A DNA stretch of 64,000 nt. Origin: Bryum argenteum. Taxonomy: Eukaryota > Streptophyta > Bryopsida > Bryales > Bryaceae. The notes beneath the pieces are model-generated. The model had not been told where the DNA came from and did not search any database. It saw nothing but the letters and a program-made list of their open reading frames with translations. A program made the translations under genes and the position numbers. Below, piece by piece: positions 27,846 through 54,111 of this stretch. The stretch is taken from NCBI GenBank assembly GCA_037043015.1, contig CM073330.1:12666512-12730511 (forward strand), in the 5' to 3' direction. How positions within the stretch are numbered: position 1 is the stretch's first letter; each line of letters opens with the position of its first letter.

Positions 27846-28023
27846 ACCAAATTCCGTTAAAATGCTACTATGTCATTTGCCATTCTGTCACACCAGATCT
27901 TACATATGCACTCAGATTTAATGGTGTATTCTGTAATATTACGATTTTTTTGATAATTGATAGTTCAGAAAGCTGAGGTGAACCATTTCAGCGGCATAAT
28001 GCCATTTTAATGGAATTGGGAAT
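27846..28023 (+). mobile_element. MITE, short form, satellite copy 6
   Basis: 178 bp. It shares GAGGTGAACCATTT with the copy at 46,203, while the copies at 24,070 and 63,412 read GAGGTGTGCCATTT. This groups the short forms into two pairs. Confidence 0.8.
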
Positions 28024-28077
28024 CATGATAGTTGAGAATTCTTATATATCATTGCGTTTTAATTTACCTAGGGTAAA

Positions 28078-28345
28078 TTACCGTCCGACAGGTGGCCGAA
28101 CGCACTTCGTCCAAAATGACCGCACTCCCGTCCGACCGTTTCACGGCCGACCGCACTTCGTCCGACTCTCCGACCGGCCGACCGGTCGGGGACCGACGCG
28201 TTCGAGGCCGACCGGTGTCGCGGTCGGGCGAGGTCGGCCACCGACCGCCCCGAGACCGGCGAGGTCGGCCGCCGACCGGGGTGACGACCGGCGAGATCGG
28301 CCGCCGACGACGTATGGCGACCGCCGAGGTTGGCCGGCTCGGCCT
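28078..28345. repeat. GC-rich subterminal repeats, left end of hAT unit 1
   Basis: Dense CCGACCG/CGACCGG repeats, including the same 32-bp unit (GACCGGCGAGGTCGGCCGCC and onwards) that is tandem in the nested element at 48,129-48,345. hAT transposases bind short subterminal repeats, so these are candidate binding sites. Long frames open on both strands here are artefacts of composition. Confidence 0.8.
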
Positions 28346-28404
28346 CGACCACTTGAATTCAACAAAGAAATTCAAATTTCAACGGTCAAATTCGGGGTTG
28401 AAGG

Positions 28405-28411
28405 TATATAA
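28405..28411 (+). promoter_or_regulatory. TATA box facing into hAT unit 1
   Basis: TATATAA in GGTATATAAGAG, just inside the GC-rich end and about 200 bases before the first ATG of the transposase pseudogene (28,611). Confidence 0.6.
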
Positions 28412-28610
28412 GAGAAGAGACACAAGGCCTCATTTCACTTCCGAATTGTGAATGCGACCCAAAGTCTCCGAGCCGCATAACTTTATGTTATGTGTCCGTT
28501 TCTTTGGTACGTATTGAGTTCGGAGTGCGAGTTCGTTTACGAACTCTTGACATTTTTTTCTACATATCTATTACCACGTTTGATCATTTTGAGGTGTCCT
28601 ACCTATCAAA

Positions 28611-31513
28611 ATGGCCAACAAATCATCCTCACCTTGGTTCACCGATGTTCATGAAGTACAAGGCCAACCTACCACGACCCCATCCGTCCAATGCAATCTC
28701 TCGTCATAAGGTTATGAGCAAGAGGCTAGAACGGCAATTTCGATCACCTTGGTTATGAAGGCAAGCGTGGGGTCCGCCTTAATACGATTTACGCTTTGTC
28801 CAAAATTGAACACCCGAGTGATGGATTTATTTCGAAGATGTGACGGGCGGTTCCCTCCACATAATGGAGAAATGAGCGGTTTTCATTCAATACCATCGTC
28901 ATCAGAAGTTCCGAATGTTGGCACGCCAAGGTCCACTGGTGGAGACTCTTGCGTGGGATCTTCTCAAGCTACCCTTTCGATTCCATCAACACCTTTAGTT
29001 GGATCAATCTCCGCCGTGCCTAACTTTGCGGGACAAGTGAGGGTTGGTGGGCATATCAATAGGGCGATGAAACAATCTGTGATTGAAGATGGTTTTGCTG
29101 AAGCGGATAGGCGGGAACTAGACATACTTTGGGCAAAGTTTTTCTATGAAGCAAACGTACCGTTTGCTGTAGCACGGAATCCGATCTTCAAGGAAGCCGT
29201 AATGAAAACTGCTTCTTTCCGAAAACCATATGTCCCACCTTCTTACCATGACATTCGGACAAAGTTGTTGGGACAAGTAAAAAGTGATCTAGAAGGAAAA
29301 CTAGATAGTAGACTCAAGGAGAGCCTTCGGAAGTTCGGGGGAACTTTAGCCATGGATGGATGGTCATCTATGAGTAGTCGCCCTCTTGTAAATGCAATGC
29401 TAGTGACTCCTGCTGGAGAGCTTTTTCTTGGCGCCGTCGATACTACCGGCAAAGAAAAGACAACAATGTATATGGCCTCTATCATGGTCAAGTTCATCAA
29501 ACAAGTTGGCCCTGAGAACGTTGTCCAAGTCTCCGCACGGACAACGCTTCAGAATGATTAATGCCTCTCGATTAGTCGTTGAGGATTATCCCCATATATT
29601 CATTCGAGGATGCGCCACGCATGCGATGGATTTGTTGTTGGAAGATTGGGGAAAGGCGTCATGGGTGAAAGAAACTTTGGAAAAGGCCAAGGGCTTGGTC
29701 AAGTTCATCAAAAATCGTCAAATGCCTTTAGCCGTGTTTCGTAAACATGAGACAAGGTTTAGCCTATTGATGCCTGGGAAAACAAGATTTGCGTGCAATT
29801 TTATAATGATAGATCGCTTATTGCGGGTTCGCGATTCTTTGGAGCAAATCGTTGTAGATCCCGATGGTTGTCATATGCCTCGAAGAAGTCTCTATCGGCT
29901 AGAGATAAATTACTGGAGTCCCGCAACGTAAGAAAAGTGGTTTTGGATGACGGTTTTTCAGCGTTGTACAAACTTCCGAGATATGGTGGCCCCGATGAGT
30001 GTATGCTCTTCGGGAATTCGACGGCAAGGAGCCTTGTACGGGCAAGGCTTTGCATATCGTTCGTCACTCGAGAAGCATGTACCGACGCTATCTACGAACC
30101 ATTTTCACTCCCGACGGATTTAGCGGACATTGCGAAGGAGAACTTCTACGCAAGGAAAAAGATGATGACAACAGATCTGCTTCTGTCTTTGGTGCACTTT
30201 TGAATCCTTATTTACTACATGACAAAGAGTTAGCGGATGATATCGAGGTCCGGCATGGGTGCGGGCGTGTTCTAAAAACTCTATGTGCTCCCGCACTTAT
30301 CCCGATGTGGCGAATGAATATATGGCATTTCGAATGAGGAGTGCACCATTTCATGAGATGTTGGATCCTACTGAGTCGAAATGTTCTCCCTTTGTTTGGT
30401 GGGAAATTGAAGGGTTTGTTGGAAAACTCCTTGCTCCGATTGCAAAGCGAATCCTAGCTCAAACGGTGTCATCGTCGGCGTGCGAACGCAATTGGAGCGA
30501 TTATTCTTTTCGTTCACGATAGGAAGCGGAATCGGTTGCTACCGGAAAGGGCAGATGACTTGGTCTTTGTATACACCAACTCAAAGTTACTTGCAAACGC
30601 AAAGTTAACGGATGAGAAGAGGTGGTACTCGGAGAGCTTGGATGTAGAGGATCGTGACGTACGTGACTCGGAGGATGAAGAAACCCCCCATAACTCAATT
30701 GGTGAAGGCTTTTCGGATCACGTTTTGGAGGACCTAGAAGATGACCTCAATAGCATCCCCGCTATGAGCTTGCAAGATGCTTTGAACGTCCCGAACACCA
30801 CGTATGACTTTGTTGACGATGAAGCTGAGGCGGATGATCCAGATGAATTGTTGCCCCTAGCTCATTTACCACGGTTTCAAAAGGATACCGACAAAGTCAC
30901 ATGTGATAATACCCCTCGTACCGGACTAACTCCAAATACGGACGAGAACGTTGTTCCGAATGTGAAAATCGTGGGGGATGATACTCATGGCCGTACTGTT
31001 ACGTTGGATCCAATAACGATAAATATGACGTCCGCCACTGCGGACGAACCTGCTTTGCCTGCTGTTGCCTCTCGGTCTCTATTTCAAAAATGTGATTTAG
31101 AGGTCCCTACAGTGATGGAGAAATCTTCCAAACGTTTGGTGTCACTTTCAAATCAAGTGCGACCTCGAACAAGACGCGTTCAATTCCGGCGGAATCTCTA
31201 GTGACTCGGATGTACCGCTTCTTCAATTGGGATACAAGAACCTTCCGGAGGTTCGGGGCTACGGAAGAAGGAGCCTCCAAGAGTTATGACGAAACGTAAA
31301 GCTCCAATGCTTCCGTTTCTTCATGATAAACCGAAGAATCCCCTTTATGCCATTAAGAATGCGGGAAAATTCAAGATCATTCATTCGGGAAGTCACAAAC
31401 GAAGAATCAAACAAGAAGTTAGTAGTGATTTCGAAGATGACCCTACGGGATCTAGCGGAGCTGAAGTAAAAGGAGACAGCGATTATGCAATTCCTACCGA
31501 TGTGGATGAATAG
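28611..31513 (+). pseudogene. hAT-superfamily transposase, broken
   Basis: Remains of a cut-and-paste transposase of the plant hAT type with a DUF659-like domain. In order: a short N-terminus beginning MANKSSSPWF and ending early; a frame at 28749-29561 with KPYVPPSYHDIRTKLL and FGGTLAMDGWSS; the catalytic-region motif TDNAS at about 29543, which sits in a different frame; a frame at 29428-29931 with FIRGCATHAMDLLLEDWGK; further fragments to 30522 with the C-terminal dimerisation motif SSSACERNWSDYSFRSR; and then KRNRLLPERADDLVFVYTNS in another frame, followed by a long acidic tail (to 31201, perhaps 31513). At least four frame changes are needed, with no splice signals to explain them, so it is inactive. 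It starts downstream of an inward-facing TATA box in the GC-rich left end. Confidence 0.88.
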
Positions 31514-31788
31514 ACATTAATTACATGCTCAGACACGTAGTAGAGGTCTAGCATACTTCGTGTATGCTAGAGATAGTATAGCTCGTGAAACTTTATTACC
31601 AAACTGTTGATATGTTCGTACTTTATTTTGTCTGAAAATGTCGGTGAATAGTCAACAAAAGACTATTACATCATAAGAAATAAAAAACTTCATTATAAAA
31701 ACCATGCATTACAAATCCAAAATGGTATGCGACCCTATTCCGGGAACTGTAACCCTCCTTAACCGTCTACGCTTCTACTGGATTTCTA
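31514..31788. other. Spacer between convergent genes of hAT unit 1
   Basis: AT-rich sequence between the end of the transposase (+) and the end of the RING-H2 gene (-); it probably holds both 3' ends. Confidence 0.5.
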
Positions 31789-34700
31789 TTACATCGCAAC
31801 TGAATGCTCTTCTGTATCAATTGTATTTGCTATACTACGAGTCCGGGGTCTTTGGCTTGGTCTAGCAATTCTACCGCCCTCGTCGTATTCTTGATCCACT
31901 GCAGCAATTTCTCTGTTGTTGCCCGACATCCAACTGTCGTCGCTCTCATTGCCATCATCCCTTTTCCGTTTCTTGGGTGGGTTAGCATTTTTGGAACGGA
32001 AGATTTTCATGGCCTCCTCGATTCGTCCCACCACATCCTTCACAAAGAAGTCATCTGCTGTGATAGACACCAATAACTCCGGCTTCACGTCTTTGATCAT
32101 TGTCGTCCAATGAGTAATGATGTTCTTAATGCGCGACTCAAATTTCTCTACCGCCTCCCAGAAAGTACAGTCTGCGTCTTTGAAAGATTCCTCCTTTGTT
32201 GAAATCCGTAAGTGTGCGGCCTCTTCCAACTTCGCTAGGACTAAAGCCCTTCCAATCGGCCTATCATCGTACTTCTTGTACTCCTCTCCAAACTCAATGT
32301 CAGTTGTTACCTCATGCCACAAACCATCTTCTCCCTTCTCTACTCTCTTTGGAGGGAATCGGAAGAAACGATTGTGTTCAGTACTCCAATGTCCTCCAAA
32401 GTTGCGGCAAAACATCTCTCGTTGCTCGCTGTCTTCAATATCTCGCGCCCTAATCTCCACCTCGTAGTCACGTGTCATCCAAAGCAATGGATCTGTCTCG
32501 CCTACATCATGCATGACGAGCTGGTGTTTTGATGTTGAACTATCCCATTCAAGTGCTTTCCCCCACTCACGAAAGTTGTGAAGTTTCTTTGGAAGTTGAT
32601 CCAAAGGAGATTCCATCGGTTGAACTCGTGCCAGGTGGCATGACATCGCGCATCCCCATCACTTCGTAGAATCTCGTGCTAATTGGAGAACGACATATAG
32701 GACATGATGATTTTCCCCGGGCAGCGCTTGCTATGCAAGTAACATGAAAGTTATGGCCACATTGGCCTAGTGTGTACGCTCCTTCTGGACCGAAATGATA
32801 TCGGCACATGCCACATTTTTCCTTCAGTATTGTCGGTGGGGGGTCGCATGTGTAAACGACATTTCGATTTGATTCCACAAAATGCGATGAGAATGAGTTG
32901 TATGGCACCCATCCTTCTGCCACTTCCAAACTCCAATCAATATCATCATCTTTTCCCATCCGATTGAAATTTGTTCGCTCCATCATCTCCTCGACATCAC
33001 CCCAAATAGTGACCTTAGTAGGTTCGTGTTCTCGTAATCTTTCGTATTTTTTAAATTCCTCCAATGATGTATTCACATGTTCACTCGAACCACATGATTT
33101 GGCGGCGATCTTCAGATTATGTTGTGCCTTTGAAACCATGGCCTCCCTATCTTGAAGTCGGTGAACCCAAGCCAACCAAGGCAATATGTTCTCTTCGCGT
33201 GGTGTATAATCCACATTTCTCAATGCCATTCGTATGGATTCTAGTTCACCGTGCCTCATCTCTCTCGCTTCATCATCGCTTCCAATTGCATTTCCAATGT
33301 TTCTTTAGGACATTGATTATGTAGGCAATCTTTCCCCTTCGAATGTGTATCATCCTCTACACGCACGCCCCTCCTTCCATTGTCCTCCGATTCCGTATCA
33401 TCGTCCAAATCGATGATTTGTTTTCCTTTCTCCTCTGTCATCAACCGTGCTTCCTTCTCTTGAATGTCCTCTATTGCCTCAGTAGGCCCTGGCTCGCATG
33501 ATGGAGTACCTTTCATCTCCGGGCCATCACTCTTATTATTCCCATCATTATTAGATGGGATAAGATCACCTTCCCTTTCGATCCTTTCTCCAATTTTTGA
33601 AATTGGAGAATTATCTTTGGTTTACTGAGGACATCTTCCACATCACCTTCTTCGGGAGGATTCAAAATGTTCATCGCTTGCTCCATGAGATTGCGGTGAG
33701 TACGGGGATTTTCTCGCTCATATCCATTAAGTTTGAAATCATAAACCACCTTGTCAATCACGGTAATTGCTACGTTATACTTATCCTGAAGACTTATAAA
33801 CTCCTCCGTATCCTTTATCCTTGCTTTCACATACGGGAGCCATGCCTCTGATATCTTCTCGTAGTCTATAGCTGCTTCTAGCATTCGAGGCGTCATTATG
33901 GCAAGAGTTTGAGCCAATTCTAAAAACCGTGGAACCATAGCAGCAACAACTTCAACCCCGACTTTCATCTCGGTCCCAGCTTGCAATATATGGGTTTTTT
34001 TGGTGTCTTCCCACTTCATCTTCGTCTCACCATCTGGAATGGTTTCGTCGTATATGACCTTCGCTACTTCGTCAATATAAGTGAGATACTCTCGCAGTTT
34101 CTTGTTGCTTGGTACTCCTTCATATATCTCTTCGAAATTTGACCACCAATCCTTCTCCATCTGCGGAGTAATGGAATCTGGCATGGATGTTGTTTCCATT
34201 GGTTTACTTGGCCCTGCCTCATTCGATTTTGGATTATTGACGGTCAAATTTAGGCCATTGGGAATAATAGGGTTATCTGGAATGAGAGGAGAGAGTACCT
34301 CTTCCACTACATTCTCTAAGTCCCCCACCTGATCTTGCACTGCATTCGCCTCTTCCAATGACTGCTCTCCAACTGCGTTTACATCCCGAAGCCTATCAAC
34401 TGCAGATTGTTCGTTTGATAGACCATCCGTGGCAAGAGGAATGTCTGTATCCTTTGTAACGACATTCTCATCTTCCGTTGTATCCTCTTCAGCCTTTGTT
34501 TTTTTTTTTTTCCTCAAAACCTCCAAAATATGCTTTGTCAAGGCAGATTGTGGATCAAAGCAATCCGGGATATGCTTCTGCTTCCTCTCAATGCGAAGCG
34601 GAAATTGAGTATTAGTTTGGTACGTGCTCCAATTTATCTTCCGCTGTAGTATCAACTCAAGGATATACCATTGCCAACAATTGGTAACAAAAGTACCCTT

Positions 34701-35142
34701 TTGTTTTGGCACGATCCCGAACAAGGCCCGCCATACTTCCTCCGCACGGTGGGATAAAGTGATCATCCTTGCATGTTGCCGGGTTGCAACAAAAGTTCTT
34801 GGTATGAACTGCATGACATTCTTTAGGCCAAAGCTTGCCAATGTGAAACATCTTCACATATTTCTTGCAAATTTGAGCGGTCCAATACTCCGTCACCTCC
34901 AGTTCCCAACCGCGTTCCGCTTTAATGTCTTCATTCTCTAAAATCTCCCAATTCAGTCCATGAGTTGCACCTTTTTGTTTATTCCTCTTCTTAGGCGCCT
35001 CTGCTGATATCATCGAATTCTCCACCTCCATACTCGTGTTCACGTTCTCAGTCGACGTCATCGTGCAAGTATCACCGAAGGATCCACGGGACGAAGCAGC
35101 CGCAACAAATGTGAAAAAAAACCGACCCCCTTCTCTCTCCAA
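31789..35142 (-). pseudogene. Transposon-borne RING-H2 gene, in five overlapping frames
   Basis: I do not recognise this gene as a whole. On the minus strand five long frames follow one another: 35142-34657, 34841-33513, 33516-33256, 33259-32567 and 32646-31789. The first holds CKKYVKMFHIGKLWP, shared with the gene at 40,952. The second (442 codons) holds LSHRAEEVWRALFGIVP and then acidic and helical sequence. The fourth has a complete RING-H2 finger at residues 149-189, spacing C-X2-C-X14-C-X1-H-X2-H-X2-C-X10-C-X2-C, so ubiquitin-ligase activity of the ancestor is likely. The last (285 codons) has a lysine/arginine cluster KKRKRDD near its end. Two junctions are ATGA overlaps (33513-33516 and 33256-33259). 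Frames 1 and 2 overlap across a frameshift near 34,800. One ancestral protein of about 1,000 residues is the simplest view. Confidence 0.65.
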
Positions 35143-35232
35143 CTAGAATGCGTGCAGCGCCTTAGCAAATCGGAGGCAATTCGAATTGGGTTACCATGAG
35201 GAGAGGAAGTGGTGGAAAATGAAGCCGGACGG

Positions 35233-35242
35233 CCCTTTATAG
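35233..35242 (-). promoter_or_regulatory. TATA box facing into hAT unit 1 from the right
   Basis: CTATAAAGGG on the minus strand, inside the right GC-rich end and about 90 bases upstream of the first frame of the RING-H2 gene. It mirrors the left-end TATA box. Confidence 0.65.
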
Positions 35243-35245
35243 TGC

Positions 35246-35570
35246 CCTCATGCCGGACCGGCCGAACCGCCGACCGGGCCTAGCCGTCCGAAGCCCCGGA
35301 GCGGCCGACCGCTCACGGACCGGGCCGTCCGGGTCCGACTGTCGACCGCCCGAACTCGCCGACGCCCCCGGACTGCCGACCGCCCCGGACTGCCGACCGC
35401 CCCCCCGGACCTGCCGACCGCCCCCCGGACCTGCCGACCGACCCCCGGACCGGCCGTGGGGCCATCGGGACCGTCCGATTGATCGCCCGGACCGCCCGGG
35501 CCTGGCCGACCGACCCTGACGGCCGAACCTTCGCAGGCCGGGCCTGGCGGAGCAGCCGCCAGCCGCCCCT
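35246..35570. repeat. GC-rich subterminal repeats, right end of hAT unit 1
   Basis: Repeats of CCGACCG, GGACCTGCCGACCG and similar. Frames open on both strands here are not genes. Confidence 0.75.
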
Positions 35571-38190
35571 CTAAACCCTAACCCCAAAATTTGTTGTGCC
35601 CCTTTACAAACCCTAGGCATCAACCAATGAAGATCTATCTATCTCTAAAATATTAAATTTGGGCCCTCGAAGTGGGCATTAGGACTTTATATTGCAAGAT
35701 CCACTCTCTGACCCACTTTGTAAAGTAGAGCTAAAGTTAAGGCACACTTTAAGTCCAAGTGGGCTCAACTCCAAATGGGCCCAACTTCAAATGGCCTCTA
35801 GTATAAAGTAGCCGTAAAAAGTGCCAAAACCCCTCAAAACCAACTTGTTATGAATTTCACTTCAATCCGAAAATGATGAAATTTAGTAGATTCTCTTGTG
35901 CACTAATAAATTATCATCTCGCAATCTATGAGGCTCTATGAATCAAACTTTTATGCACATGACTTACAAGAGTATGTTTTTTAGGGCATCCTCAATGGAG
36001 ACTAAATAACCGCCCTTTGTACCAAATTCTATGTTTTGAGTGATTTTGAATTAAAAAATACAATTACCAACGTAAGAAGCGCATGTAAAAAAACGTGAGA
36101 TAGATCTCAAGAAATAAGAAATGTGGATAAAATTTTATTCCCAAATTGTGTAAACTTTCCCTACAAATTTAAAGTTGTTTTATTTAAATTTGTTTTAGGT
36201 TTTTTTTAAAAAATTAGACCTAGCTGCTTAAAAGTTTCTACTTAACCGTCTCCCTTGCAACGAATTTCTTATACTAATAGGATAATTATAAACTGGTAAT
36301 TACTGTTCTTTAAGAAGATAGATAGATACAAACTCCAATTTTCATATCGAATATAACAATTGTATATAAATATAACCAAAGAACTCACGACAAAAAATAG
36401 TCTCTTCCATCTTACCCATGAGTTTATATATCCACCTAAAAGTCTTTCTATAGTCTTTTACTTTCCAATTTCTAAAAACAAATCTTATTAATAGATCAAT
36501 TATAGAAATCTAACTCTTCATGTATGTAAACCATTTATATTTAAAGTAGGATATCTATATTTACGTATATACTATGTATTAATAAATTAGAATATGTATA
36601 TTTATGTATGTACTTTATGTTTCATAGTATAATATGTATATGAAGGTATATATTATATGTAATATATATTATAATTGTATCGTATTATTGTTGAATTTAT
36701 TATAAATATAATATTTCCTGTATACATCAATACATGTATAGTATATATACTTATGTATGTACTTTTTGATTTATAGTTCTCGCACACAAAGTAGAATTGA
36801 TTTGCTTTACCTCTAAATATGTATTTAAGTAGAACCACTATTTATATAGAACTTGTTTACCTCTAAATAAAATCTTAGCATTAAATCGCTATTTATGTAG
36901 AGTGACTTTACCTCTAAATATGTTATTTTATTATTTTCATTTTAGAGGGGACCCCAGTTAAGAACCAACATCCCGGATGAGACTATAACATGTCCAATAT
37001 ATAATAAAGGAATTAGCCTACAAAGGTTTGTAAAATAATGTATTGGATATGGAAAAATAAAAATATTAGCTAGGGGAAATTAATAAATCCTAGACCATGA
37101 ACCTTATATCCTATGCTCAAGTGATTTCATCCACAATATACTCTAAATGAAAAAGCAATGGCTATTCAAATCATTCTATTCCCTAATCAATCCATCAAAG
37201 TTTCTAATATAAGAATAATCAACTTCATTTAACATAAAATAGAAGTACTATACGTGTACAAGATCAAATATGATTATAACTTTATAAGTTAATGCCGTTA
37301 TTGCCATATGTTAAAAACTTATAGGGTGCGATATTTTTATTAATTTATTTGTAACGCTTTTTACTTCTCTTAATTTATGATCACAATATAGAAAACAATA
37401 GAATCAGATATCAATTACCTTTACAAGAGGTAAATAAATAATTACTCAAATTAATACACAACGATGAAATTATTTCTAAATGCACATGAAATAATATAGA
37501 CCATAAAATGTGGACAACTTAAGGGCTAAATAGGAAGTTTAAATATTGACTAATACGGTAATACCAAAGTTATGAAAACAAAATACTCACACATGCTCAC
37601 CTACATTTAATATATACTTAGATCTCTCCAATGTTAGACATAAGTATACTCTCATCAAGGAATAGGTAAAAAGTCCGGAAAGTGATATGAGAGGATTTAG
37701 GGCCACCTCAAAGTGCACAATACGGGCCAAGCCATTAATGGGGCCAATACATGAAAACATCTCCTTGTGAGAATGGATCAATATTTGACAAAAGTTGGGA
37801 CATTCAAGAAATGAATGAAAACTCATGGCCTAAAAGCGTTCTCTTCATTCAAATTAAGAAAGAATATTTGTAAGAAATAAAATCAATGAGAAGTTGAGAA
37901 CAAATCTAAAACATGGACTCTCGCTAATAATAAGAATTGGCCCCATAACCTTCGTTTTCCTTCTAGAAAAAATGGGCACCAACTCCCAACACCTTCACTA
38001 ATGGGGGAATAGGCATGGGAGATATGTTGGCCTTGACTCCTCTTGCAAGGAGTCCCTTATTATAGAATTATTTGGAGCCTAGAGTATCTTTGTCATAAAA
38101 CATTCTTGTTTCTGACAAAGAGATCTTCCCGACATTCCCTTGTCAGAACATTCCCTACCCCGATTTAGACGCCACGTGTACGCGAGACGC
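35571..38190. other. AT-rich non-coding interior of the hAT complex
   Basis: No gene. Parts are repeated after the GC block at 38.3 kb: 35,850-35,965 resembles 38,775-38,890 (ACTTCAATC, GATGAAATTT, TTCTCTTGTG); 37,300-37,450 resembles 39,240-39,400 (ACCTTTACAAGAGGTAAATA); and 37,552-37,600 resembles 39,603-39,650 (CGGTAATACCAAAGTTATGA). Confidence 0.6.
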
Positions 38191-38269
38191 TAAATATAGA
38201 AATGCAAATATGCAATGCGGGGAAGTGAGAGAAGTTGAGGAAACGGGAGTTACGGCCTTCCGGGAGAGG

Positions 38270-38490
38270 CAAGAAGAGGAGGGGGAGGGAGGTACGCCGG
38301 CCGACCGACGGATAGCCGACCGTCGGTCGGGCGGCAGCCGATCAGGCCGCCGGCCGGCGGTCTCCGGGCGTCCCGGTCGCTCGGCCGTCCGCGGTCGCCG
38401 GGCCGGTCGGTAGGCCGGTCATGCGGTCGGTCCCATCGGTCGGCCGGGCACGAGCGGCCCGATTGACCGATCGTACATCGCCATCATCAG
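38270..38490. repeat. Isolated GC-rich CCGACCG block inside the complex
   Basis: Same repeat family as the unit ends (GGCCGACCGACGG, GGTCGGTAGGCCGGTC), ending in a poly-T run at about 38,501. Probably the remaining end of another, mostly lost hAT-derived unit. Confidence 0.65.
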
Positions 38491-40496
38491 CCGCTTCGGT
38501 TTTTTTTTTTTTTTTTTCTTAGTTTCCATTGTGTTCCTGGAATCTTTCTAAATTACATAGGATCCTTTTTAAATTTTAATCCCTCTCAGATTTCTGTTAT
38601 TAGATTTTCAGTGATTATTACACAATGAAAAAAGGAATCCTATGTTGATTTGTGAAATGCTATATATTCTTTATTCACGGATATTGGTTTAGTGGTTAGG
38701 GTTCCGGGTTTAGGGTTTAGGGTTTAGGTTTATGGTTTACTTAGAGATTTCATGATTGCAGTAGCTTTGTTATATGAATTTTTACTTCAATCTAGAAGTG
38801 ATGAAATTTCGTAAATTCTCTTGTGTACTAACATATTATGATCTCGTAGTGTATGAGGTTATGTGACTCAACTTTGGGGCACATGACCTACAACTATAAC
38901 TCTATTTCAATATTGCATGGTTGAGAATGTAAGTTGAGAATGCTCATTTTAATATAGGACCCTTATTTTGGAAATGCAACATTTGGTAAAAAATGGACAT
39001 TAGGTTTGGGGAGTCTATAATCTTAGATGCTATGTTGAATGTTGAAAATACTATCAATATATTCCTTGCAACAAACTCGTGATTTATTCCATGTCAATAA
39101 TAATAACAATGCGATGGAGAAAAGTGGCATTCTAATTGATTAAAAATATAAATCAATACTACACCATGCATACACGAATCCCTTATTTTCATTCCACACA
39201 CAATTGAGTTTCCAAAGATTTCCAACACCAATCTTTATAAGTTGATGCGATATGTTAAAAACTTTTAGAGTTGGATATTTTCGAAAATTTATTTGTCTCC
39301 CTTTTTACTTCTCTTTATTTGTGATTGCGAAATAGAAAACAATAGAGTCCTCTTTCTATTACCTTTGTAAGAGGTAAATAAATAATTATTCAAATAAATA
39401 CAATAAAAAATGGTACTAATAAATATGGAAAAAGAATATGTGCAAATTAAGTACAATGATATGTACTACATTATAAATATACTCCTACCTTAGTTCAAGG
39501 GTGTCAAACAAAAATAGCCAATAATAGAATGAGTTGTTTAGGCATAATGTTTTTTCAGTTAAGCCTATTCTTATGTCTAAATGTGGTCAATGTAAGGCCT
39601 AACACGGTAATACCAAAGTTATGAAACTAAATGGTCACACATGCTCTATAAGTCTATTACAATATTACATGTTTGAGAATGTAAATTGTGCATCTTCATT
39701 TCAATATAGGACCCTTCATTTGATAATGCGTCATTTGGTTAAAAATAGGCACTACGTTTGGGGAGTATATAATCTTAGATCCAATTGGCAAAAAAAAAAA
39801 CTTATTTTGTTCCTTTAAGTCATTTTGAAGTATTCTAATTATAATGTGAATAAGAATGAAATTAGAAAATACGAGTAATTATTATATACGGTATAAATAA
39901 AACCACGTCTATTTACATAAAACCTCATCATTGACATGGAAGACACAAATTAGGATACGATGATTCTATCATCCCTGGTTCTAAATTTGGGACGCATGTA
40001 TGTATAATGAAAATTTATATGTTATATGTTTTATACGTACACATATTTTCATGAATGCCAATAGCCTTCTATTATAGTTCATGAGAAAATATATTTTTAA
40101 GCTAATACATGTTCATTGTAAGTTTGTAACCCTTAACCTCAAATGCCCAAGGGGTGTAGACTCTAGAGCCTAGAAACACACGTTTTGCAAAGTGCAAGAG
40201 ATGAAAATAAAGGTTAGCAATCTAGATCCCAACCGTACAACATTGTAGAAGACTTGGTTTAGGTCATGTGGAGGAAATTTGGACTCCAAGACTAGAACTA
40301 TTAAAAAAAAATTCCTTTCTTTGTGGGCCATGGGAAAGCATGCCTCATGTTTGAAAAAATCAAAAAACAAGACTTGGTTCTCCATCGGCGTTCATTTTCT
40401 TCTCCCTATGGAAACCCAACAATTGTGTAATAAAAAAATAAAAAAAAAGAAAAGAAAAAAAAAAAAGGAAAAAAGGAAAAAAACAAACAACAAAGC
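38491..40496. other. AT-rich non-coding interior of the hAT complex
   Basis: No gene. Holds the second copies of the direct repeats described for 35,571-38,190, a short telomere-like run, and an A-rich tract at 40,434-40,490 just before the next GC-rich block. Confidence 0.55.
38706..38729 (+). repeat. Short telomere-like TTTAGGG run
   Basis: About three units of the plant telomere repeat (GGGTTTAGGGTTTAGG). Too short to imply a chromosome end. Confidence 0.6.
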
Positions 40497-40804
40497 CACC
40501 CCGACCGGACGGACGGGACGGCCGACCAGATCGGACGGCCGGCGACCGCATCGGACGGCCAACGACGCCCTCGCGACCCGTCGGACGGCGGCCGTCGGAT
40601 CCGTCGGCGCGACGGATCGGTCGGCGCGATGGCCCGGCCGATCCGGCGGCGCGACGGATCTGTCGACCCGACGGGCGGCTGCATCGGTCGCCAATGCGGC
40701 CATCGGATTGGCCGACGATCTGGCCGACCGATGGCGGAATCGACCATGCCGCCGACGGAGATCGGACGGCCGGGAACGGGCGAATGCCGACCAGCCGCGA
40801 TCGG
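40497..40804. repeat. GC-rich subterminal repeats, left end of hAT unit 2
   Basis: Repeats of GACCGGACGG, CGGACGGCC and GGCGCGACGGATC. No terminal CAGGGTTGTCA was found before it, so the outer left end of this unit is lost. Confidence 0.7.
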
Positions 40805-40812
40805 TATAAATA
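40805..40812 (+). promoter_or_regulatory. TATA box facing into hAT unit 2 from the left
   Basis: TATAAATA in CGGTATAAATAGCCGACC, within the GC-rich end, about 140 bases before the ATG at 40,952. Confidence 0.65.
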
Positions 40813-41468
40813 GCCGACCGGGCTCTCATTTCTTCTCACTCGTGTGTGCCCCACAGTCGCTGTGGTTTTCCATGTCGATTGCGCTCCTCGAGTCCCCTCT
40901 TGATAATCGACGCCATTTTTTTGCGGTTTTTTTTTCTTGTGGGTGAACAATATGCCGAGGGAACGACGTACTAGTGCACCCAAGGGCAAGGCCCCGGAGA
41001 TGGATTGGGAAACAAATCGACGATCCAAATTGTGTTGCGAAGATGGATGTGAAGATGAACCGGCGAGAATTTGGAATTGCACCATGTGCAAGCGATATGT
41101 GAAGATGAAACACCTCATGAAGTTATGGCCAAGAAATCAAGCGATTATATCGGGGCCACGACGCGAAGGACTAGTCGTGATTCTGCAAGTCAACATTTCA
41201 CACTTCGTTATCATGAAGTGACCATTGCCGTTAGAGTACGGAATACTAGGCCGAAATCATGTTATATTCCAACATGGCTATGGTTTGGGCGTAAATCGTT
41301 CTACATAAGAACGTGGATTGGAGGAACGTAATGAGGTTTGAATGTTGCCGGGTGGATCGGAGCCATGATTTCATACCAACTAGTTGGCTTGGACCCAGTG
41401 ATTGTATGCCCCTTTGGTCAAATCGGACATATACGGAGATGTCGGAAGTTCAAGATGAAGAAAGTACA

Positions 41469-41648
41469 CCTCCAAGGAGATATGGAGGTCAAACACGAAT
41501 TTCTCAAGATACACCTCCGAGGGGATACGAGGGTCAAACACAACATCAACAAGACACACCTCCGAGGGGATACGAATGTCAATCTGAACATCAACAACAT
41601 ACACCTCCGAGGGGATATGGGGGTCACACCGCAGATAATTATAATCGC
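41469..41648 (+). repeat. 45-bp coding minisatellite, four units
   Basis: Units begin CCTCCRAGGGGATAYG at 41469, 41514, 41559 and 41604. The 45-bp period keeps the frame and encodes a 15-residue repeat. Confidence 0.85.
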
Positions 41649-41751
41649 AGCAATAACAGAGGTATGGTACCAATATCTTTTGGCATAGAAGTGGTGGGTA
41701 TTATCCCGGTAGCAATATATACGGTCCAGGAACCACTACTCCTGAGACATA

Positions 41752-42190
41752 TAGGCCAGAGCATCCAAGGGATACGTACCAATCCAGAGGCCAACACGAT
41801 ACAAGTCCGAATGCTGGAGGAAGATATATGCCAACATATCCTCGGGATACATACAAGTCAGGAGGCCGATACGGTGGAATGAGTGCTCCGGAGAGCTATA
41901 CGCCAACATATCCTCGGGAATTTAACGATATTCCCGGCCAATATGGTAGAGGGACCAGTAGTCCAGAGTACCATATCCCAACACATCCAAGGGACACATA
42001 CGAGTCTCGAGGCCAGTATGGGAGAGGACCTAACATTCGAGAAAGGTACCCCACAACGTATCCTACTGGATCATACGATGCTCACAACCAATACGGTAGA
42101 AGACCTGAGGTTCCAGATAGCTTTAGACCAACGTATCCAAGAGATACGCATGATCATCACGGCGAGTACAGAGAGAGCTATTACCAATCC
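41752..42190 (+). repeat. 75-bp coding minisatellite, five to six units
   Basis: Units begin CCAACATATCCTCGGGA or variants; lengths are 72, 75, 75 and 75 bp for the four clearest units. All are multiples of three, so the 25-residue repeat was kept in frame while units diverged. This suggests past selection for protein. Confidence 0.8.
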
Positions 42191-42530
42191 CGAGTACCGT
42201 ACTCCAAGTCAAGCAAGAGATGAATACGAGCCCAGTTGGAATTACCGGACAAGGATCGTGAAGAGCATATCACTCAAGATCCATATCCGGTATGGCCAAC
42301 ATGCATATGGGAGTAACAACACTCCCCGCCACCATTCCGAACTCGTGAAGAAGAAGATGCGAGTTTGAAAGACAACTATGAGAGGCAACAATTCAAAGTC
42401 AAGCGGAGTACATCCGCAAGCTTGAAAATGATCGTATTTACTGACGAGCGGCGCTTGTATGATGCTTATTTGCGGGGGCGGTACTCGGACCAAGCGGGGC
42501 CAAGTGGAACACAATATGATAAGGACTAGG

Positions 42531-43526
42531 ATGCAAAGTAGTTATACATTTACATATAGGCATGTTGTAATGTCTTGTGTACGTACATGTAGTATTTGGA
42601 TGAGAACTCTATTCTCCATATGGTAGAGGTCATTTTTTAAGACCTTCTTAACCATGTTTTGTTGGTAAACGGACATCATATGAATGATATACGGAATGTA
42701 GAACCATAACCTATATTACACATTTATTTGAGTAAATATGTTATGATTCCATTTATTAACCAGTTTGTTTAAAACTTTATTTGGGATTTGCTTCGGAGGC
42801 AGTGTCTCCACGGTGCAAAGGGGGAGTTGGCGATTGTTACCAACAAAATTTTGGTCATATTTTTTCCCTATATGTAATCAAGTGTAGTAAATTCATGCAA
42901 AATTTGGGAGGCTCATTCCTCTTGATTGACATTCTTACAAGTTATTTTCTAAAAGCAGGTCCGAACAATACTATAGTAAAACATGCACGTCATTACGTAT
43001 ATTTCGTATTATAAAGAACTTAGAGTGGGGTATGTGAGTGTAGGAGTTCGTGATTTTGAGGTAACTTAGTTCTAACAGATTTTCCATAATCTAGAATTTT
43101 GACAAATTAAAATATGTAATTCATAATTTACTAATACATTTTGAGCTTGTGTTGGTAATTTCGGAGAGGTCACCATTTGTAAAATTGGTAAATATTATGA
43201 CTTAAATATTTTTGGAATTTCAGTAGTGATTAAACTTATAAACATATGAGAAGAAAAATAGAAGATAAATCGCTAAATTTGAATTACCCAACCAACACTT
43301 AAAAATTGAATCAATAGGTTTTTCTGGGCTTTACCCTAAAGGCCTCATCCAAATGGTGCAAAGGGGCAAAATATTATAATAAACATAAGTATACTTGGTG
43401 GGCCAAAATTTGAAAGGCATGCAATGCATTTGAAACAAAGAGTATTGTTGCACTGAAAATAGAACAAACATACTAATTCATAAACTATAATAAAACCGAT
43501 ATGCGTAAAACAAATTCTACGTTCTC
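42531..43526. other. Spacer between convergent genes of hAT unit 2
   Basis: AT-rich; no gene recognised. It lies between the 3' ends of the repeat-protein gene (+) and the kinase-like gene (-). Confidence 0.5.
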
Positions 43527-45013
43527 CTATTCGTAATTCGTCCGAAAATGCTCACGAGGCGTAGGCCAATGAAACATATCGCTAAACCGTGAGATGATAT
43601 GGGACAACCCTCCAGCGCCGTCACGACTCTCGTTGCATACTCTATCCATGTAAAGATGGAAAGCTTGTGCAAGGTCTTCATTGGAGAATACCGAAGTATT
43701 TCGGTTTCCACGTTGCAAGCTCTCGTACGCCGTAGACATGGTCATCCCATTAATTCTTTGTGCTATACGGGCCGTGGCAAACTCCTCCGAAGCAATCGAG
43801 TATTTTGGAATAACCTGTAAATCCTCACCCGCTTTGTACAAGAACGCCACTCGTGGATCTACCCAATAACGTTTTCGCAGGGTCTCCACCATCTCCTCAC
43901 GTTTTTTTGTAAATGTATAAAGGGATTGCATTGGTTCCTGAACCGTTGTGGAGAACCCCCAATCGCATACTCCGATATACACTCGTGATTCATCGGCGGG
44001 GAAGTGGAGAAGGATATTATCTGGAGATATATCATTATGGAGGTGGTGGCTCTTGTGGACCTCGTTCATGATATGCAACAACGCCCAAGCAAGCTCTGTC
44101 CGTTTTTTACGGAATCGAATCAGTTGATGCGCCCGAATAACTTCGTCGTCAGGGTAATTCCCAAAGTTCAAATGTACAAAGACATCGTCACCATAATCCA
44201 TATCGCGGTTCAGCATCTCTCGAATAGTCCCGCCATTCCACCAAAACGCATAGCCTTGATTCTTCACTGGATGAATGGCCACAAAGCGGATCACACCCGG
44301 GTGTCCAATCCTTATCGCCATAGACTCATTCATATGCTCCAATTTTGCCAACTCCGGTCGTGTCAAGTGGTGAATGGAAGTTTTTGCGCAAAAATTCCCA
44401 AAATGGTTCAATGCCTCGCAACACCTTCAAGCGAACTTTGACAATAGTACCATACCGTCCCTTCAACCTCGTGTCGTCAACTCGTATGATTTGAGTCATA
44501 TCCGGAATGGTAACCAAATGAGTCAATCGCATGGTTTGAGTTTGTCGTCCCTCTAGCGATTGCCACCATGTTCCGAGCCTCGACGGTGTGAATTCTTTGA
44601 AAATGCCCTCATTTGGGCGGAAAAACAATCACCCCTATTCACCACGTCAACGAAATCCTCATCACCCTCCCGAAATATCCTCCCATATTTGGCTATTACA
44701 ACCTTGGGATTCCAGTGCATCCTTCACCCTATTCTCCAAAAACCACATGAACCCTCGTTTCTCTGTCCTCTGCTACCCACTTCGGATCTTTGAAGCACTT
44801 CTATCATGAGATCTCTCATTTCAATCTTGAACTTACGGATGCCCTCCTCCCGATATCTCACATATTTGCTTTCCAATGCTCAAGATCATTGGCCTCATAG
44901 AATTTGACGGTAAATTCTATCAAGAATACCTTACAAGCGTCGCCCGGGACCTCATGAGGCTCAAACTTCTCAAAGAAGTTCGCAACACCCTTCTTCTTCT
45001 TCTCCTTCGGCAT
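43527..45013 (-). pseudogene. Transposon-borne protein-kinase-like gene, broken
   Basis: Kinase fold with most catalytic motifs. The start at 45,013 gives MPKEKKKKGVANFFEKFEPH, which ends at a stop near 44,860. A frame at 44628-44326 holds the glycine-rich loop (LKGRYGTIVKVRL). The main frame, 44411-43527 (294 codons), follows with a likely beta-3 lysine in FCAKTSI (Lys10), then HLHNDISPDNILL (HRD replaced by HND; Asp127 and Asn132 kept) and VCDWGFS (DFG replaced by DWG; Asp150 kept). The frame change near 44,380 falls between the glycine loop and the lysine. The HND and DWG variants make it a divergent kinase. The source family is unknown. It is read from an inward TATA box in the right GC-rich end, opposite the repeat-protein gene. 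Inactive as it stands. Confidence 0.7.
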
Positions 45014-45227
45014 CTTGATCCCAAAAAGGAAATATGTAAAGTGTGAAGTTTTTAAAAAACTTTTCAAAAAAAAAAAAGCGAAAACTCCCCGTATAACAAG
45101 TGACTTCCTTCCTCCAAAAGACAAGGAGCCAGGTGGGACGGAATCACAAAGAATTCCCGACGGAGAAACTCCGCATCCTCTCATCGTGAGAATGGAGGAA
45201 AGAAGTGAGAAAAAGGAGGCCGGTCGG

Positions 45228-45237
45228 CCTTTTATAG
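45228..45237 (-). promoter_or_regulatory. TATA box facing into hAT unit 2 from the right
   Basis: CTATAAAAGG on the minus strand inside the GC-rich end, about 215 bases upstream of the kinase-like start at 45,013. Confidence 0.65.
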
Positions 45238-45811
45238 CGGCCGACGGCCCGCCCGGATCGGACGGCCGATCGGTCGCTGGCCGACCGACGGACGGCCCGC
45301 CGGATGGCCGACGCGGCCGACCGGCCGGCGGCCCGACCGCTGGCCGACCGCCCTCGAGCCGACCGACCGACCGCCGCCCAGCCCGACCGACCGCCCGCCG
45401 AGCCGACCGACCGCCGCCGGCCGCCGGTTTTTTAGACCGATCCGTCCGTCGGACGGCCCGACCGATCGGTCGGCCGCGCCCAGATCCGACGGCCGTCGGG
45501 CATGCGGACGGCGCCCCAATCCAACGGCCCGCAACGTTCCATCTTGATCCTACGGCCAGGATTTGTTGCGGTCGGCGTCCGTCAGATCTGACGGAGCGAC
45601 CGGGGGTCGGTCGGCCAGACCGGGGATCAAGATCTAACGGCTGAGATGCTACCAGGTGGATGATCCAACGGCCCCAGCAGTTACCAGGCACCGGGGTAAC
45701 TCCCATTTACCCCCCCGGACCATGATCCGGACTATGGTCCCGGTCGACATAGTCCGGACTACGACCGCGGACTAGGTTTACCCCGAATGTCGACCGATTT
45801 GACAACCCTGA
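45238..45811. repeat. GC-rich subterminal region and right terminus of the hAT complex
   Basis: CCGACCG repeats, then GGTAACTCCCATTTACCCC, GACTATGGTCCCGGTCGACA, GGACTAGGTTTACCCC, and the terminus TTGACAACCCTG at 45,800-45,811. The last 110 bp closely match the right end of the nested element at 54,780-54,895. Satellite follows directly. Confidence 0.85.
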
Positions 45812-47838: not shown

Positions 47839-47954
47839 CAGGGTTGTCAGGACGACCGGACCAGGGGGCGACCGGTCGACCATGGTCCGGTCGTCCTCAG
47901 CCCCTAGGACCTGTCGGTGACATAACGGGTTTTTTGGAATTTACCTGGGGTAAA

Positions 47955-48128
47955 TTACCGTCCGACCGGTGGCCGACCGCACCCCCGTCCGATCCTTGAC
48001 CAGCCGACCGCACCCCCGTCCGACCGCACCCCCGTCCGACCGTTTGACCGGCCGACCGCACCCCCGTCCGACGCTTCGACCGGCCGACCGGTGCCGGGAC
48101 CGGCGTTCCCTAGGCCGACCGGTGTGCG
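47955..48128. repeat. GC-rich subterminal repeats, left end of the nested element
   Basis: Tandem CCGACCGCACCCCCGT units and GGCCGACCG motifs. Confidence 0.8.
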
Positions 48129-48345
48129 GACCGGCAAGGTCGGCCGCCGATCGGGGTGACGACCGGCGAGGTCGGCCGCCGACCGGGGTGACGACCGGCG
48201 AGGTCGGCCGCCGACCGCTGTGGCGACCGGCGAGGTCGGCCGCCGACCGGGGTGACGACCGGCGAGGTCGGCCGCCGACCGCTGTGGCGACCGGCGAGGT
48301 CGGCCGCCGACCGCTGTGGCGACCGGCGAGGTCGGCCGCCGACCG
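48129..48345. repeat. 32-bp tandem repeat in the nested hAT-type element
   Basis: Units start GACCGGCRAGGTCGGCCGCC at 48129, 48161, 48193, 48225, 48257, 48289 and 48321 (the last is partial). Each contains the dyad GGTCGGCCGCCGACC. Related units lie at about 28,211-28,335. Confidence 0.85.
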
Positions 48346-48351
48346 GCGAGG

Positions 48352-49128
48352 TCGGCAAATCGGTCGGCGGCCGATGTGACTGCCTGCAGAAACTTGAAAT
48401 GCCCCTAACTTATTCAAAACTTATCAGAATCGAACATTTAAGATGTTTTTTGACATCTACAGAACATGTACATGCCAAAAAACATCTTAAACGTCCAATT
48501 TGGATACGTTTTGACAAAGTTATAGGCCTTTGAAGGTTGAACGGCCTTTGAAGGCCTATAACGTTGTCAAAACAAATCCACATTGTGCATTTAAGATGTT
48601 TTTTGGCATCTACATGTTCTGTAGATGTGAAAAATTATCTTAAATAAGCAATTCGGATAATTTTTGACGAAGTTATGGGCATTTGAAGTTTGAAGAGCTA
48701 ATGCAGGCAATCAGATCGACCTCCGACCGATGTGCCGACCGATTCAACGGCCGGCGACCGATTCGACGGCCATACCCGGTCGGCCCACCCAACCTTCTTC
48801 TTTCAACACCCCTTCTCTTCCTAACTTCCCTTCCTCCCTCCCCCTCCCAAATGCTTGACTTTCGTGACAAATGAAAGAATCGTTGAGACTTACTGTTTTA
48901 GGACATACAATCTAACATATATAGGCCTAATTGGGAAATTTTTGATACTTGTATTAATAGTCAAAAGAATGTCCGAAAGATTCTCTTGCAAGAAGGATCA
49001 TATTCCTAAAGGAGAAGCTCTAGAGTGACCTCCAAGACGGCCATATCTCAAATCTGCGAACAAATTTTTTTGAATTTGATTTTCGAATATCCAACCGTAT
49101 GATCTTGTTCATAACGGTTGAATTAGTT
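48352..49128 (+). repeat. Long inverted repeat 1, left arm
   Basis: About 780 bp, matching the reverse complement of 50,925-51,725 from TCGGCAAATCGGTCGG inwards to GGTTGAATTAGT. The 1.8 kb between the arms (49,129-50,924) is AT-rich with no gene. Arms of this length around a gene-less core resemble a foldback or non-autonomous Mutator-type element. Confidence 0.85.
48382..48709. repeat. Near-palindromic module 1
   Basis: A segment bounded by GCCTGCAG and TGCAGGCA that folds on itself: CTTGAAATGCCCCTAACTT at the left pairs with AAGTTATGGGCATTTGAAG at the right. Inner hairpins are of the type TTTAAGATGTTTTTTG...CCAAAAAACATCTTAAA. The centre is GGCCTTTGAAGG/CCTTTGAAGGCC. Confidence 0.85.
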
Positions 49129-50924
49129 TATGTCCAATGGTTGAATTTTTACTTTCTAGAAGTTTGGTGAGTTAGGAACCACATCCAATTTACAAAACCT
49201 CATTTGGAATCATAGATTGTTCACACCAAGCCTTCAAACACAAACGTGGCAAAGTTTTCTTAGTGTTAGAAAACTTACTATTAGGAGAAACTATTAGTAT
49301 TCTTCTTGAGTTATTAGTAGCCTTTTTCTATTTTATCATATAACATATAATATTAGCCAATCATATCAAATTTCAAGTACTAATAATAGAAAGTGTCATT
49401 TCTATTGATTTTTAAAGTTTTACCTTTTTTAATTCATTACAAAATGAATATTTACTATTTTAAGAAATTCAACCGTATCGATCTAATTTAAACATTAAAG
49501 TCTTCATATTGTTCTTAGAGAAAAACTTCATAAGGGTTAGGGAACTCACATTTCATAACACATCTAAGTTTTTATCCAAACCCCTCGGGCTTTTAGGGGT
49601 TAAATGCTCCCAACTCTCATATGTTAACTGAAAACATTATCAAAAGCATTAATAAGCTTTAAATGGTACTAATTGGATAGAAGATTAGTATTATATGAAT
49701 CCTACGATACCACCAACTTGTATATTCAAATATCTATCTACTATCCCTCGTATTTTAAATCTTGTTCACAATCTCTTACTCTCAATTTTAATTTATTATT
49801 TTTCAATTTTAATGAACATATCACCCCCCAAGATTTCTTAATCTTGGTCTTATTTTATTTAAATTGATATTTCTAAAGCTTGATTGATAACTAAATTTCA
49901 CATATCAACTTAAAGTAAAAAAATTCAATAATTAAATGGAAGCATTTAAAATCTTAATTTAAACCGTGAATAATTTTAAATTGTACTAAATGGATACTTT
50001 AACATACATATGTGGATAATATACATTCTATTTTACTTTTGAGAAAGTTGGAAGTTAATGCAATCTAATAATTGTAATAAATTGTCAAATTGTCCAATAG
50101 GCACAAACATTTACTGGAACGTGGTTTACGTAGTCTATAATCTATAAAAAACCCAAAATACTATGTGGTCTACGTATGAGAGATGGAGGTGATTTAGTAA
50201 TTACGACTTGTGTGAATAAGGTACAAAAGGGCATTAGTCACATTAGTCACAACCTACAAAAAATTAGATAGAATTGTGTCAGGTCCTTCTTGACATAGAT
50301 GAGGAAGAAGAGGAGAAAATCCAGCCAAGATAGCAAATTAGATTTGTTTAATTCCTACTCTATCCCTACCTTGTGTTTTAATTTCTATCTACCAACGCTA
50401 GTATTTTAAATCTTGTCCTAACCTCAACTTCTAATTTTGATTTATTGCCTTTCAATTTTAATTAACATGTAACCCTCCTATATAATGTAAATTTGTATGC
50501 TATTTTACTTAAAACTTTAATTTCAAAAGTTTGTCTTCTTGCCTTAATTGTCTTCTTAAATTCCCAATTTATTTAATTTTTTGAATTTGCAAGTATCTTC
50601 CTATTAAATATTTATGTTTTTTCTTTCCTTTGTAATTTACATCTAACGCCCCCTTCCCCCAAATTTCATTCCTTTGTTTCACTCTAACAACTTAATTTCG
50701 CACCACTCTCCAAAAACTAAAATTAAAAACTCAAAAATGAAACTATTAAGTTCAATAGTTTATGTGTATACCCATAAGTATACCCCTTAACCCATAAAGG
50801 AGAGTTTGACCCGAATCGGGTCGATTTGCTTGAAAAAGATATGATGTTTTTTACAAAAATTGAAACTTTGACTCAATATATCTCAAGATCCGTACAGTGA
50901 AATCTAATAAAAATTGATGGGTAG
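49129..50924. other. AT-rich spacer between arms of inverted repeat 1
   Basis: No gene or recognisable family. Open frames are short and AT-driven. Confidence 0.55.
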
Positions 50925-51725
50925 ACTAATTCAACCGTTATGAACAAGATCCTACGGTTGGATTTCCCAAAATCAAATTCAAAAAAAAAAAATTGTTTGC
51001 AGATTTGAGATATGGCCGTCTTGGAGGGCACTCTAGAGCTTCTCCTTTAGGAATATGATCCTTCTTGCAAGAGAATCTTTCGGACATTCTTTTGACTATT
51101 AATACAAGTATCAAAAATTTCCCAATTAGGCCTATAAATGTTAGATTGTACGTCCTAAAACAGTAAGTCTCAACGATCCTTTCATTTGTCACGAAAGTCA
51201 AGCATTTGGGAGGGGGAGGGAGGAAGGGAAGTTAGGAAGAGAAGGGGTATTGAAAGAAGAAGGTTGGGTGGGCCGACCGGGTGTGGCCGTCGAATCGGTC
51301 GCCGGCCGTTGAATCGGTCGGCACATCGGTCGGAGGCCGATCTGATTGCCTGCATTGGCTCTTCAAACTTCGAATGCCCATAACTTCGTCAAAAATTATC
51401 CGAATTGCTTATTTAAGATGTTTTTTCACATCTGCAAAACATGTAGATGCCAAAAAACATCTTAAATGCACAATTTGGATTAGTTTTGACAAAGTTATAG
51501 GCCTTCAAAGGCCGTTCAACCTTCAAAGGCCGTTCAACCTTCAAAGGCCTATAACTTTGTCAAAACGTATCCAAATTGGACGTTTAAGATGTTTTTTGGC
51601 ATGTACATGTTCTGTAGATGTCAAAAAACATCTTAAATGTTTGATTCGGATAAGTTTTGAATAAGTTAGGGGCATTTCAAGTTTCTGCAGGCAGTCACAT
51701 CGGCCGCCGACCGATTTGCCGACCG
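50925..51725 (-). repeat. Long inverted repeat 1, right arm
   Basis: Reverse complement of 48,352-49,128. It includes module 2 and the stretch CACGAAAGTCAAGCATTTGG that is mirrored at 48,850. Confidence 0.85.
51343..51697. repeat. Near-palindromic module 2 (reverse orientation)
   Basis: Same module as at 48,382 but inverted; slightly longer because the central AAAGGCCGTTCAACCTTC unit is duplicated. It serves as an arm for both inverted repeat 1 and inverted repeat 2. Confidence 0.85.
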
Positions 51726-52013
51726 ATCCAACGACCGCCGACCGATCCTACGGCCCACACCCGGTCGGCCTCTAGCACTCCCCTCTCTCCTTCTCCCCTC
51801 TCTCACTCACGAGCCCTTCCTCTCCTCTTCTTCAATGTATTCCTCCTCTTCAATGTATTTAAGAACTTTCTATTTCGAGGACCTGACATCATATTCTCAG
51901 CCTAATTCAAGGCATGGACCCACGTGCCATATTCTTTGGGGAATGTTACGAAGATTTTATTGTAATCTATGAGAATGTTTTATTTGAATAATCTTATGGG
52001 CTTGGATATGAAA
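51698..52013 (+). repeat. Long inverted repeat 2, inner left arm
   Basis: Matches the reverse complement of 53,803-54,111, with CCACACCCGGTCGGCC, GCATGGACCCACGTGCCATA and ATAATC. With the adjoining modules each arm is about 650 bp. Confidence 0.85.
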
Positions 52014-53802: not shown

Positions 53803-54111
53803 TCATATATCTCCAAGGCCATATGATTATTCAAATAAAACATTCTCATAGATTACAATAAAATCTTCTTAACATTCCCCAAAGAATATGGCACGTGGGT
53901 CCATGCCTTGAATTAGGCAAAGAATTTAATGTCTGATCCCCAAAATAGAAAGTTCATAAATGCGTTCAAGGAGAGGAAGAAGAGGAGAGAAAGGGCTTGT
54001 GAGTGAGAGAGGGGAGAGGGAGAGAGGGGAGTGCTAGAGGCCGACCGGGTGTGGGCCGTAGGATCGGTCGGCGGTCGTTGGATCGGTCGGCAAATCGGTC
54101 GGCGACCGATG
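53803..54111 (-). repeat. Long inverted repeat 2, inner right arm
   Basis: Mirror of 51,698-52,013, running directly into module 3. Confidence 0.85.

Follow-up and report, generated by a model that had tools for sequence, protein, structure and literature searches.

DNA transposons of the hAT superfamily, such as Ac, hobo, and Tam3, are typically a few kilobases long and encode a single transposase gene; their short terminal inverted repeats follow a CAGGG pattern, and their target-site duplications (TSDs) tend to the form nTnnnnAn. CACTA elements make 3-bp TSDs. According to a review of giant transposons (PMC6431247), eukaryotic cut-and-paste elements are thought to be less efficient above ~6 kb of cargo, Pack-MULEs and other gene-capturing elements carry gene fragments, mostly of 1–2 kb, and the En/Spm (CACTA) families of the red alga Chondrus crispus are enlarged, with 16–20 kb and four to five open reading frames (ORFs). 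The VANDAL elements, which are MULEs, carry vanB and vanC, one gene having an anti-silencing function (PMC6446971). Here, we describe a hAT element of the moss Bryum argenteum, found in a stretch of 64,000 nucleotides (the window; assembly GCA_037043015.1, contig CM073330.1, positions 12,666,512 to 12,730,511, forward strand) and present in more than 100 copies in the genome. The segment from 28,063 to 45,810 of the window is a decayed copy of this ~18-kb element, family F1, with the left ~100 bp missing. It is, almost certainly, one element carrying four genes and not two units, and the whole is very probably best explained as a large cut-and-paste hAT of 17–19 kb whose own four genes form two convergent pairs.

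Like Ac, hobo, and Tam3, the moss element generates 8-bp TSDs, has CAGGG-type termini, and encodes a transposase with DUF659 and dimerization domains; unlike these typical hATs, it is 17–19 kb long and carries four genes. The nearest printed precedent found is that of the Chondrus CACTA families, likewise cut-and-paste elements of similar size with several ORFs of their own; they belong to another superfamily. VANDAL elements are also plant DNA transposons with genes besides the transposase; they belong to the MULE superfamily. Pack-MULEs similarly hold nontransposase sequence between transposon ends, whereas the moss element keeps whole genes in a fixed order in two families. A Pack-type gene-capturing element was considered for this locus and rejected, the same genes being colinear in six F1 copies and in a second family, F2. 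Among titles and abstract beginnings of open-licence papers, searched with several narrow term sets, no multi-gene hAT with RING and kinase genes was found, and the word hAT is absent from the main text of the giant-transposon review.

The genome searched comprises 258.8 Mb in 25 contigs. Six F1 regions, picked because a RING match and a right end lie 12–14 kb apart, were compared with the window. All six are colinear with window positions 28,057–45,810 across the four genes, with ~92–97% identity in the main blocks and down to ~80% in the GC-rich end blocks, and extend leftward into the ~100 bp absent from the window copy, where position 28,063 lines up with approximately the 100th base of an undamaged left end. 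The gene order is hAT transposase (+), RING-H2 protein (−), repeat-rich gene 3 (+), and kinase (−). The termini read CAGGG(T/A)TGTCA, also written CAGGGNTGTCA for both families: the F1 terminal inverted repeat is the 11-bp CAGGGTTGTCA and that of F2 is CAGGGATGTCA, each at both ends. Four of the six copies have exact CAGGGTTGTCA...TGACAACCCTG ends and perfect 8-bp TSDs (CTCAAACT, GTCAAAAT, ATAGAAAC, and GCCATATC). In the two others, the left terminus is mutated and the TSDs are still perfect (TTGGTGCT and GTTTGAAT); TTGGTGCT, from the C11 copy, is weaker evidence because this word recurs in a short tandem repeat. The long F1 elements measure 17.8–18.7 kb.

A search with the 172-bp right end gave 112 first-look candidates genome-wide, of which 40 were scored, with 94–100% identity. 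First-look candidates for the two ends numbered 112 and 115 for F1 and 282 and 261 for F2 (40 scored for each end). A scored right end lay less than 30 kb from 13 of the 40 scored F1 left ends; three of these pairs had already been read and ten were checked. Eight of these ten F1-type pairs (three long, seven of 6.1–8.5 kb) have perfect TSDs. Altogether, perfect 8-bp TSDs flank 26 of the 28 end pairs examined (F1 long, 7/9; F1 short class, 8/8; F2, 11/11), with T at position 2 in 17 of the 26 and A at position 7 in 20. These duplications demonstrate past movement. Membership in the hAT superfamily rests on the short inverted termini, the 8-bp TSDs, and the transposase domains.

Family F2, with CAGGGATGTCA ends and ~56% protein identity to F1, carries the same four genes in ~17 kb. 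The RING matches include a divergent group at 54–60% identity, with open frames of up to 1,204 amino acids (aa). Four F2 loci were read. F2d is complete: 17,242 bp, CAGGGATGTCA ends, the TSD ATCTCAAA, and the genes for transposase (+), RING (−), gene 3 (+), and kinase (−). F2b, nested within an F1 copy, has the left end and all four genes, the kinase being shortened; F2c has all four genes, and F2a the RING gene, gene 3, and the beginning of the kinase gene. Ten more F2 end pairs, picked by eye, span 16.9–18.0 kb in nine cases and 23.2 kb in the tenth; all have perfect TSDs (10/10), against 0 of 90 mispaired ends taken as a control. Wider pairs (27–35 kb), of which there are at least three, were left aside. 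Among the matches listed, a tally picked by hand inside 11 F2 elements counts a transposase in nine, a RING gene in seven, and a kinase in three, and one element with none. At L029:1-1032, an F2 copy interrupts the transposase-encoding part of an F1 element.

The linkage of the genes was also counted genome-wide. The matches listed are 142 of 143 for the transposase (one second piece left out; 142 of 904 candidates scored), 150 of 151 for the RING protein (150 of 710 scored), and 84 of 89 for the kinase (five second pieces left out; 84 of 1107 scored). The following counts are lower bounds, since only scored and listed matches enter them. A convergent RING gene lies 1.5–8 kb downstream of 72 of the 142 transposases, at 3.1–3.7 kb in 63 cases; three other transposase–RING pairs are closer than 8 kb, one of them convergent at 1.4 kb. 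Similarly, 50 of the 84 kinases have a same-strand RING gene 7–26 kb away on the expected side, whereas 200 random placements averaged 0.84 and never exceeded 4 (with 20 Mb taken for some contigs). Four further kinases have a RING gene within 26 kb in another arrangement.

The coordinates of the features in the window are collected in table 1. The transposase frames, broken in the window, are open over 942–973 aa in stretches of four other copies, and the F2 transposase matches Dimer_Tnp_hAT (PF05699, 3.5e-12) and DUF659 (PF04937, 1.5e-32). For the catalytic DDE residues and the C-x2-H motif, the open frames show the candidate motifs MDGWSS, CTDNA, CATHA, and ACERNWS. The RING frame of the C9 copy is 1,122 aa long. 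The RING domain (PF13639) scored above the cut-off; among 19 proteins, seven of the eight C3H2C3 zinc ligands are invariant and the eighth is conserved in at least 90%. The full-length RING model is of low quality (pLDDT 47.9). The N-terminal domain of gene 2 is shared with gene 3: in the C9 copy, the two proteins align over 122 aa with 34% identity and an E value of 2e-20 in this two-sequence comparison.

Table 1. Features of the window assigned to the hAT elements, with the observations on which each rests
Feature	Coordinates	Strand	Basis or conservation
Decayed four-gene hAT copy, family F1	28063..45810	+	Colinear with six TSD-flanked copies; left end and flanks compared
TATA box of gene 1	28405..28411	+	Kept in 6/6 other F1 copies
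Gene 1, hAT transposase, frames broken	28611..31513	+	DUF659 (PF04937) in the window
Gene 2, ~1,080-aa RING-H2 protein, frames broken	31789..35061	−	Open frame of 1,122 aa in the C9 copy
TATA box of gene 2	35236..35241	−	Kept in 6/6 other F1 copies
Central spacer	35262..40460		GC-rich blocks at edges and near 38.3–38.5 kb, otherwise AT-rich; no assigned gene
TATA box of gene 3	40805..40812	+	TATAAATA in 3/6 and CATAAATA in 3/6 other F1 copies
Gene 3, repeat-rich protein, frames broken	40952..42529	+	N-terminal domain in common with gene 2
Gene 4, protein kinase with helical N-terminal region, frames broken	43527..45013	−	Open frame, predicted model and fold match
TATA box of gene 4	45231..45236	−	Kept in 6/6 other F1 copies
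Right terminus	45800..45810	−	CAGGGTTGTCA read inwards (right end TGACAACCCTG)
Second, short element with F1-type ends, without the four genes	47839..54895	+	TSD TACACCAC at 47,831–47,838 and 54,896–54,903

Gene 4, of which the C9 copy has an open frame of 509 aa, has a kinase fold with the lysine, glutamate, catalytic aspartate, asparagine, and metal-binding aspartate. In 52 sequences (51 relatives and the query), K226 is kept in 51 (one gap), E245 in 52, D343 in 50 (one N, one gap), N348 in 51 (one gap), and D366 in 48 (one N, three gaps); the alignment used for folding left out 18 of the 51 relatives, namely P0027 and others that were mostly short. The organism-named moss relatives of the window kinase come from Ceratodon purpureus alone, with 78% and 45% identity; a related Ceratodon kinase carries the name KC19_VG055000. 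P0027 (51%) is filed under a Bacilli bacterium metagenome-assembled genome, perhaps by moss contamination.

Between F1 and F2, the transposases have an identity of 0.56–0.57 and a ratio of nonsynonymous to synonymous divergence (dN/dS) of 0.25–0.30. The values are 0.55–0.58 and 0.25–0.31 for the RING protein and 0.53–0.55 and 0.25–0.27 for the kinase, both over aligned parts. The ratios were obtained by a simple count, restricted for RING and kinase to codons in stretches of more than 30% local identity. As the three proteins diverged to a like degree, they probably traveled together under constraint. This is most simply explained by genes that were already together in the common ancestor of F1 and F2 and have been under constraint since. 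Very likely the element carries the RING-H2 protein, gene 3, and the kinase as permanent components and not as captured cargo.

Several observations weigh against this reading. Dropping poorly aligned codons lowers dN for RING and kinase, full-length RING identity between F1 and F2 is just 46–48%, the between-family ratios are rough since dS is 1.1–1.6, and they cover genes 1, 2, and 4. The six F1 copies were preselected for a RING match 12–14 kb from the right end, and two of the nine long F1 pairs have no matching TSDs. In F2c, the transposase is interrupted and exact ends were not found in the stretch; in F2a, no transposase match lies left of the RING gene in the stretch fetched. Among the matches listed, 34 of the 84 kinases and 70 of the 142 transposases have no RING partner in place. 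The present copies are decaying: close transposase pairs give dN/dS of 0.39 and 0.57. Within F2, the RING ratio is 0.61–0.99, compared with 0.35 for the kinase, 0.37–0.48 for the C-terminal part of gene 3, and 0.22–0.33 for the transposase, so that the RING protein is weakly constrained, the least of the genes in present copies. This RING ratio and the many broken copies also speak for an alternative in which genes 2–4 are passengers: they would descend from host genes that an ancestral hAT took up, and would play no part in transposition; transposons do capture host genes (PMC6431247). We consider it unlikely, given the between-family dN/dS of 0.25–0.31, the whole frames with conserved catalytic and zinc-binding residues, and the equal gene order in both families.

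The accessory genes might instead work for the host, or for a drive system (meiotic or sex-chromosomal), with the transposon as their vehicle. Contig C1 (44.1 Mb, 17% of the genome) is enriched in the matches listed, with 98 of 142 transposases, 74 of 150 RING genes, and 39 of 84 kinases; it may represent a sex chromosome or some other region where recombination is low. The concentration of listed copies on C1 is what speaks for such a service, but it may only mirror low recombination, and the genes accompany transposases genome-wide, which leaves this explanation quite improbable.

A sequence-only reading of the window had recognized inward-facing TATA motifs, GC-rich CCGACCG blocks, a hAT transposase, and RING-H2, repeat-rich, and kinase-like ORFs. 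These features are real and located as described, the hAT relationship is borne out by the termini, TSDs, and DUF659 and dimerization domains, and the ubiquitin-ligase-like and kinase-like genes do lie inside the element, the genes sitting within TSD-flanked ends rather than outside them. What did not hold is the division into two side-by-side hAT units with exchangeable cargo. The GC-rich blocks and inward TATA boxes at 28.4, 35.2, 40.8, and 45.2 kb do resemble two pairs of ends, and the N-terminal domain common to RING and gene 3 suggests that one half may stem partly from duplication. However, the inner blocks have neither termini nor TSDs, the six other F1 copies run through the supposed boundary, including the central spacer, with matching TSDs at their outer ends only, and F2 has the identical arrangement; we give two units hardly any credence. 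Exchange of cargo is likewise unsupported, because gene order and strands do not vary among the six F1 copies or in F2, the lone exception, F2a, simply being without a transposase in its stretch.

The proposal of a TATA box at each gene stands for F1 only. In F2, TATATAAG occurs ~205 bp upstream of gene 1 (3/3 copies with the start found) and ~170 bp upstream of gene 4 (2/2). No TATA motif lies within 450 bp upstream of gene 2 in F2a, F2c, and F2d, nor of gene 3 in F2a, F2b, and F2d, the upstream DNA being GC-rich; upstream of gene 2 in F2b, the DNA is AT-rich. A TATA box at every gene was therefore rejected as a rule for both families; with TATA motifs at genes 1 and 4 alone in F2, conservation is confined to the two outer promoters. 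Finally, a virus-derived element moved by hAT ends, which the large size and accessory enzymes might suggest, is extremely improbable: no viral hallmark gene was recognized among the ORFs read (part of them by Pfam search), and the kinase alignment gave no confirmed relative among 26 pattern matches in viral contigs, nor among 19 in bacterial and archaeal contigs.

On the preferred reading of a four-gene hAT, the transposase would recognize the ends, probably together with the subterminal blocks rich in CCGACCG, excise the element, and insert it elsewhere by cut-and-paste. We lean toward the accessory genes working for the element. Acting as a ubiquitin ligase and a protein kinase, respectively, the RING protein and the gene 4 product would jointly adjust the nucleus for transposition; the predicted target is a host silencing or repair factor that is removed or modified, or the transposase itself. 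The shared N-terminal domain may bring RING and gene 3 to the same partner or DNA. More tentatively, and with somewhat less than even confidence, the >100 copies, concentrated on one large contig, could represent an old moss lineage of autonomous hATs whose conserved posttranslational module (ligase, kinase, and N-domain partner) disarms host silencing or repair. If true, this would be a cut-and-paste transposon equipped with a virus-like set of accessory effectors. A hAT layout of 17–19 kb has persisted despite deep divergence and occurs many times over in a single genome, and its two conserved enzyme classes open an experimental route to asking how a plant transposon could act on proteins of its host. 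Frames of this kind are likely to pass for ordinary genes in annotations; one related cluster has 126 members, among them a C. purpureus protein named as a gene product.

The short class of elements with F1 ends resembles the long copies just near both ends (pieces of at least 150 bp compared), and a piece of the kinase is still inside one short-class pair on contig C1. CCGACCG is concentrated at both ends, the short class included; this distribution would fit subterminal transposase-binding sites as well as promoters. The short element of the window splits a Ty3-type long terminal repeat element (47011–47838 and 54896–58505). The satellite flanks of the long copy (27,459–28,062 and 45,813–46,418) are 98.4% identical over ~600 bp and overlap instead of meeting, which suggests that the array was rearranged after the insertion of the element. 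Pieces of the central spacer, noncoding as far as seen, are 70–84% similar between F1 and F2 in a changed order, the coding parts being ~70–80% similar.

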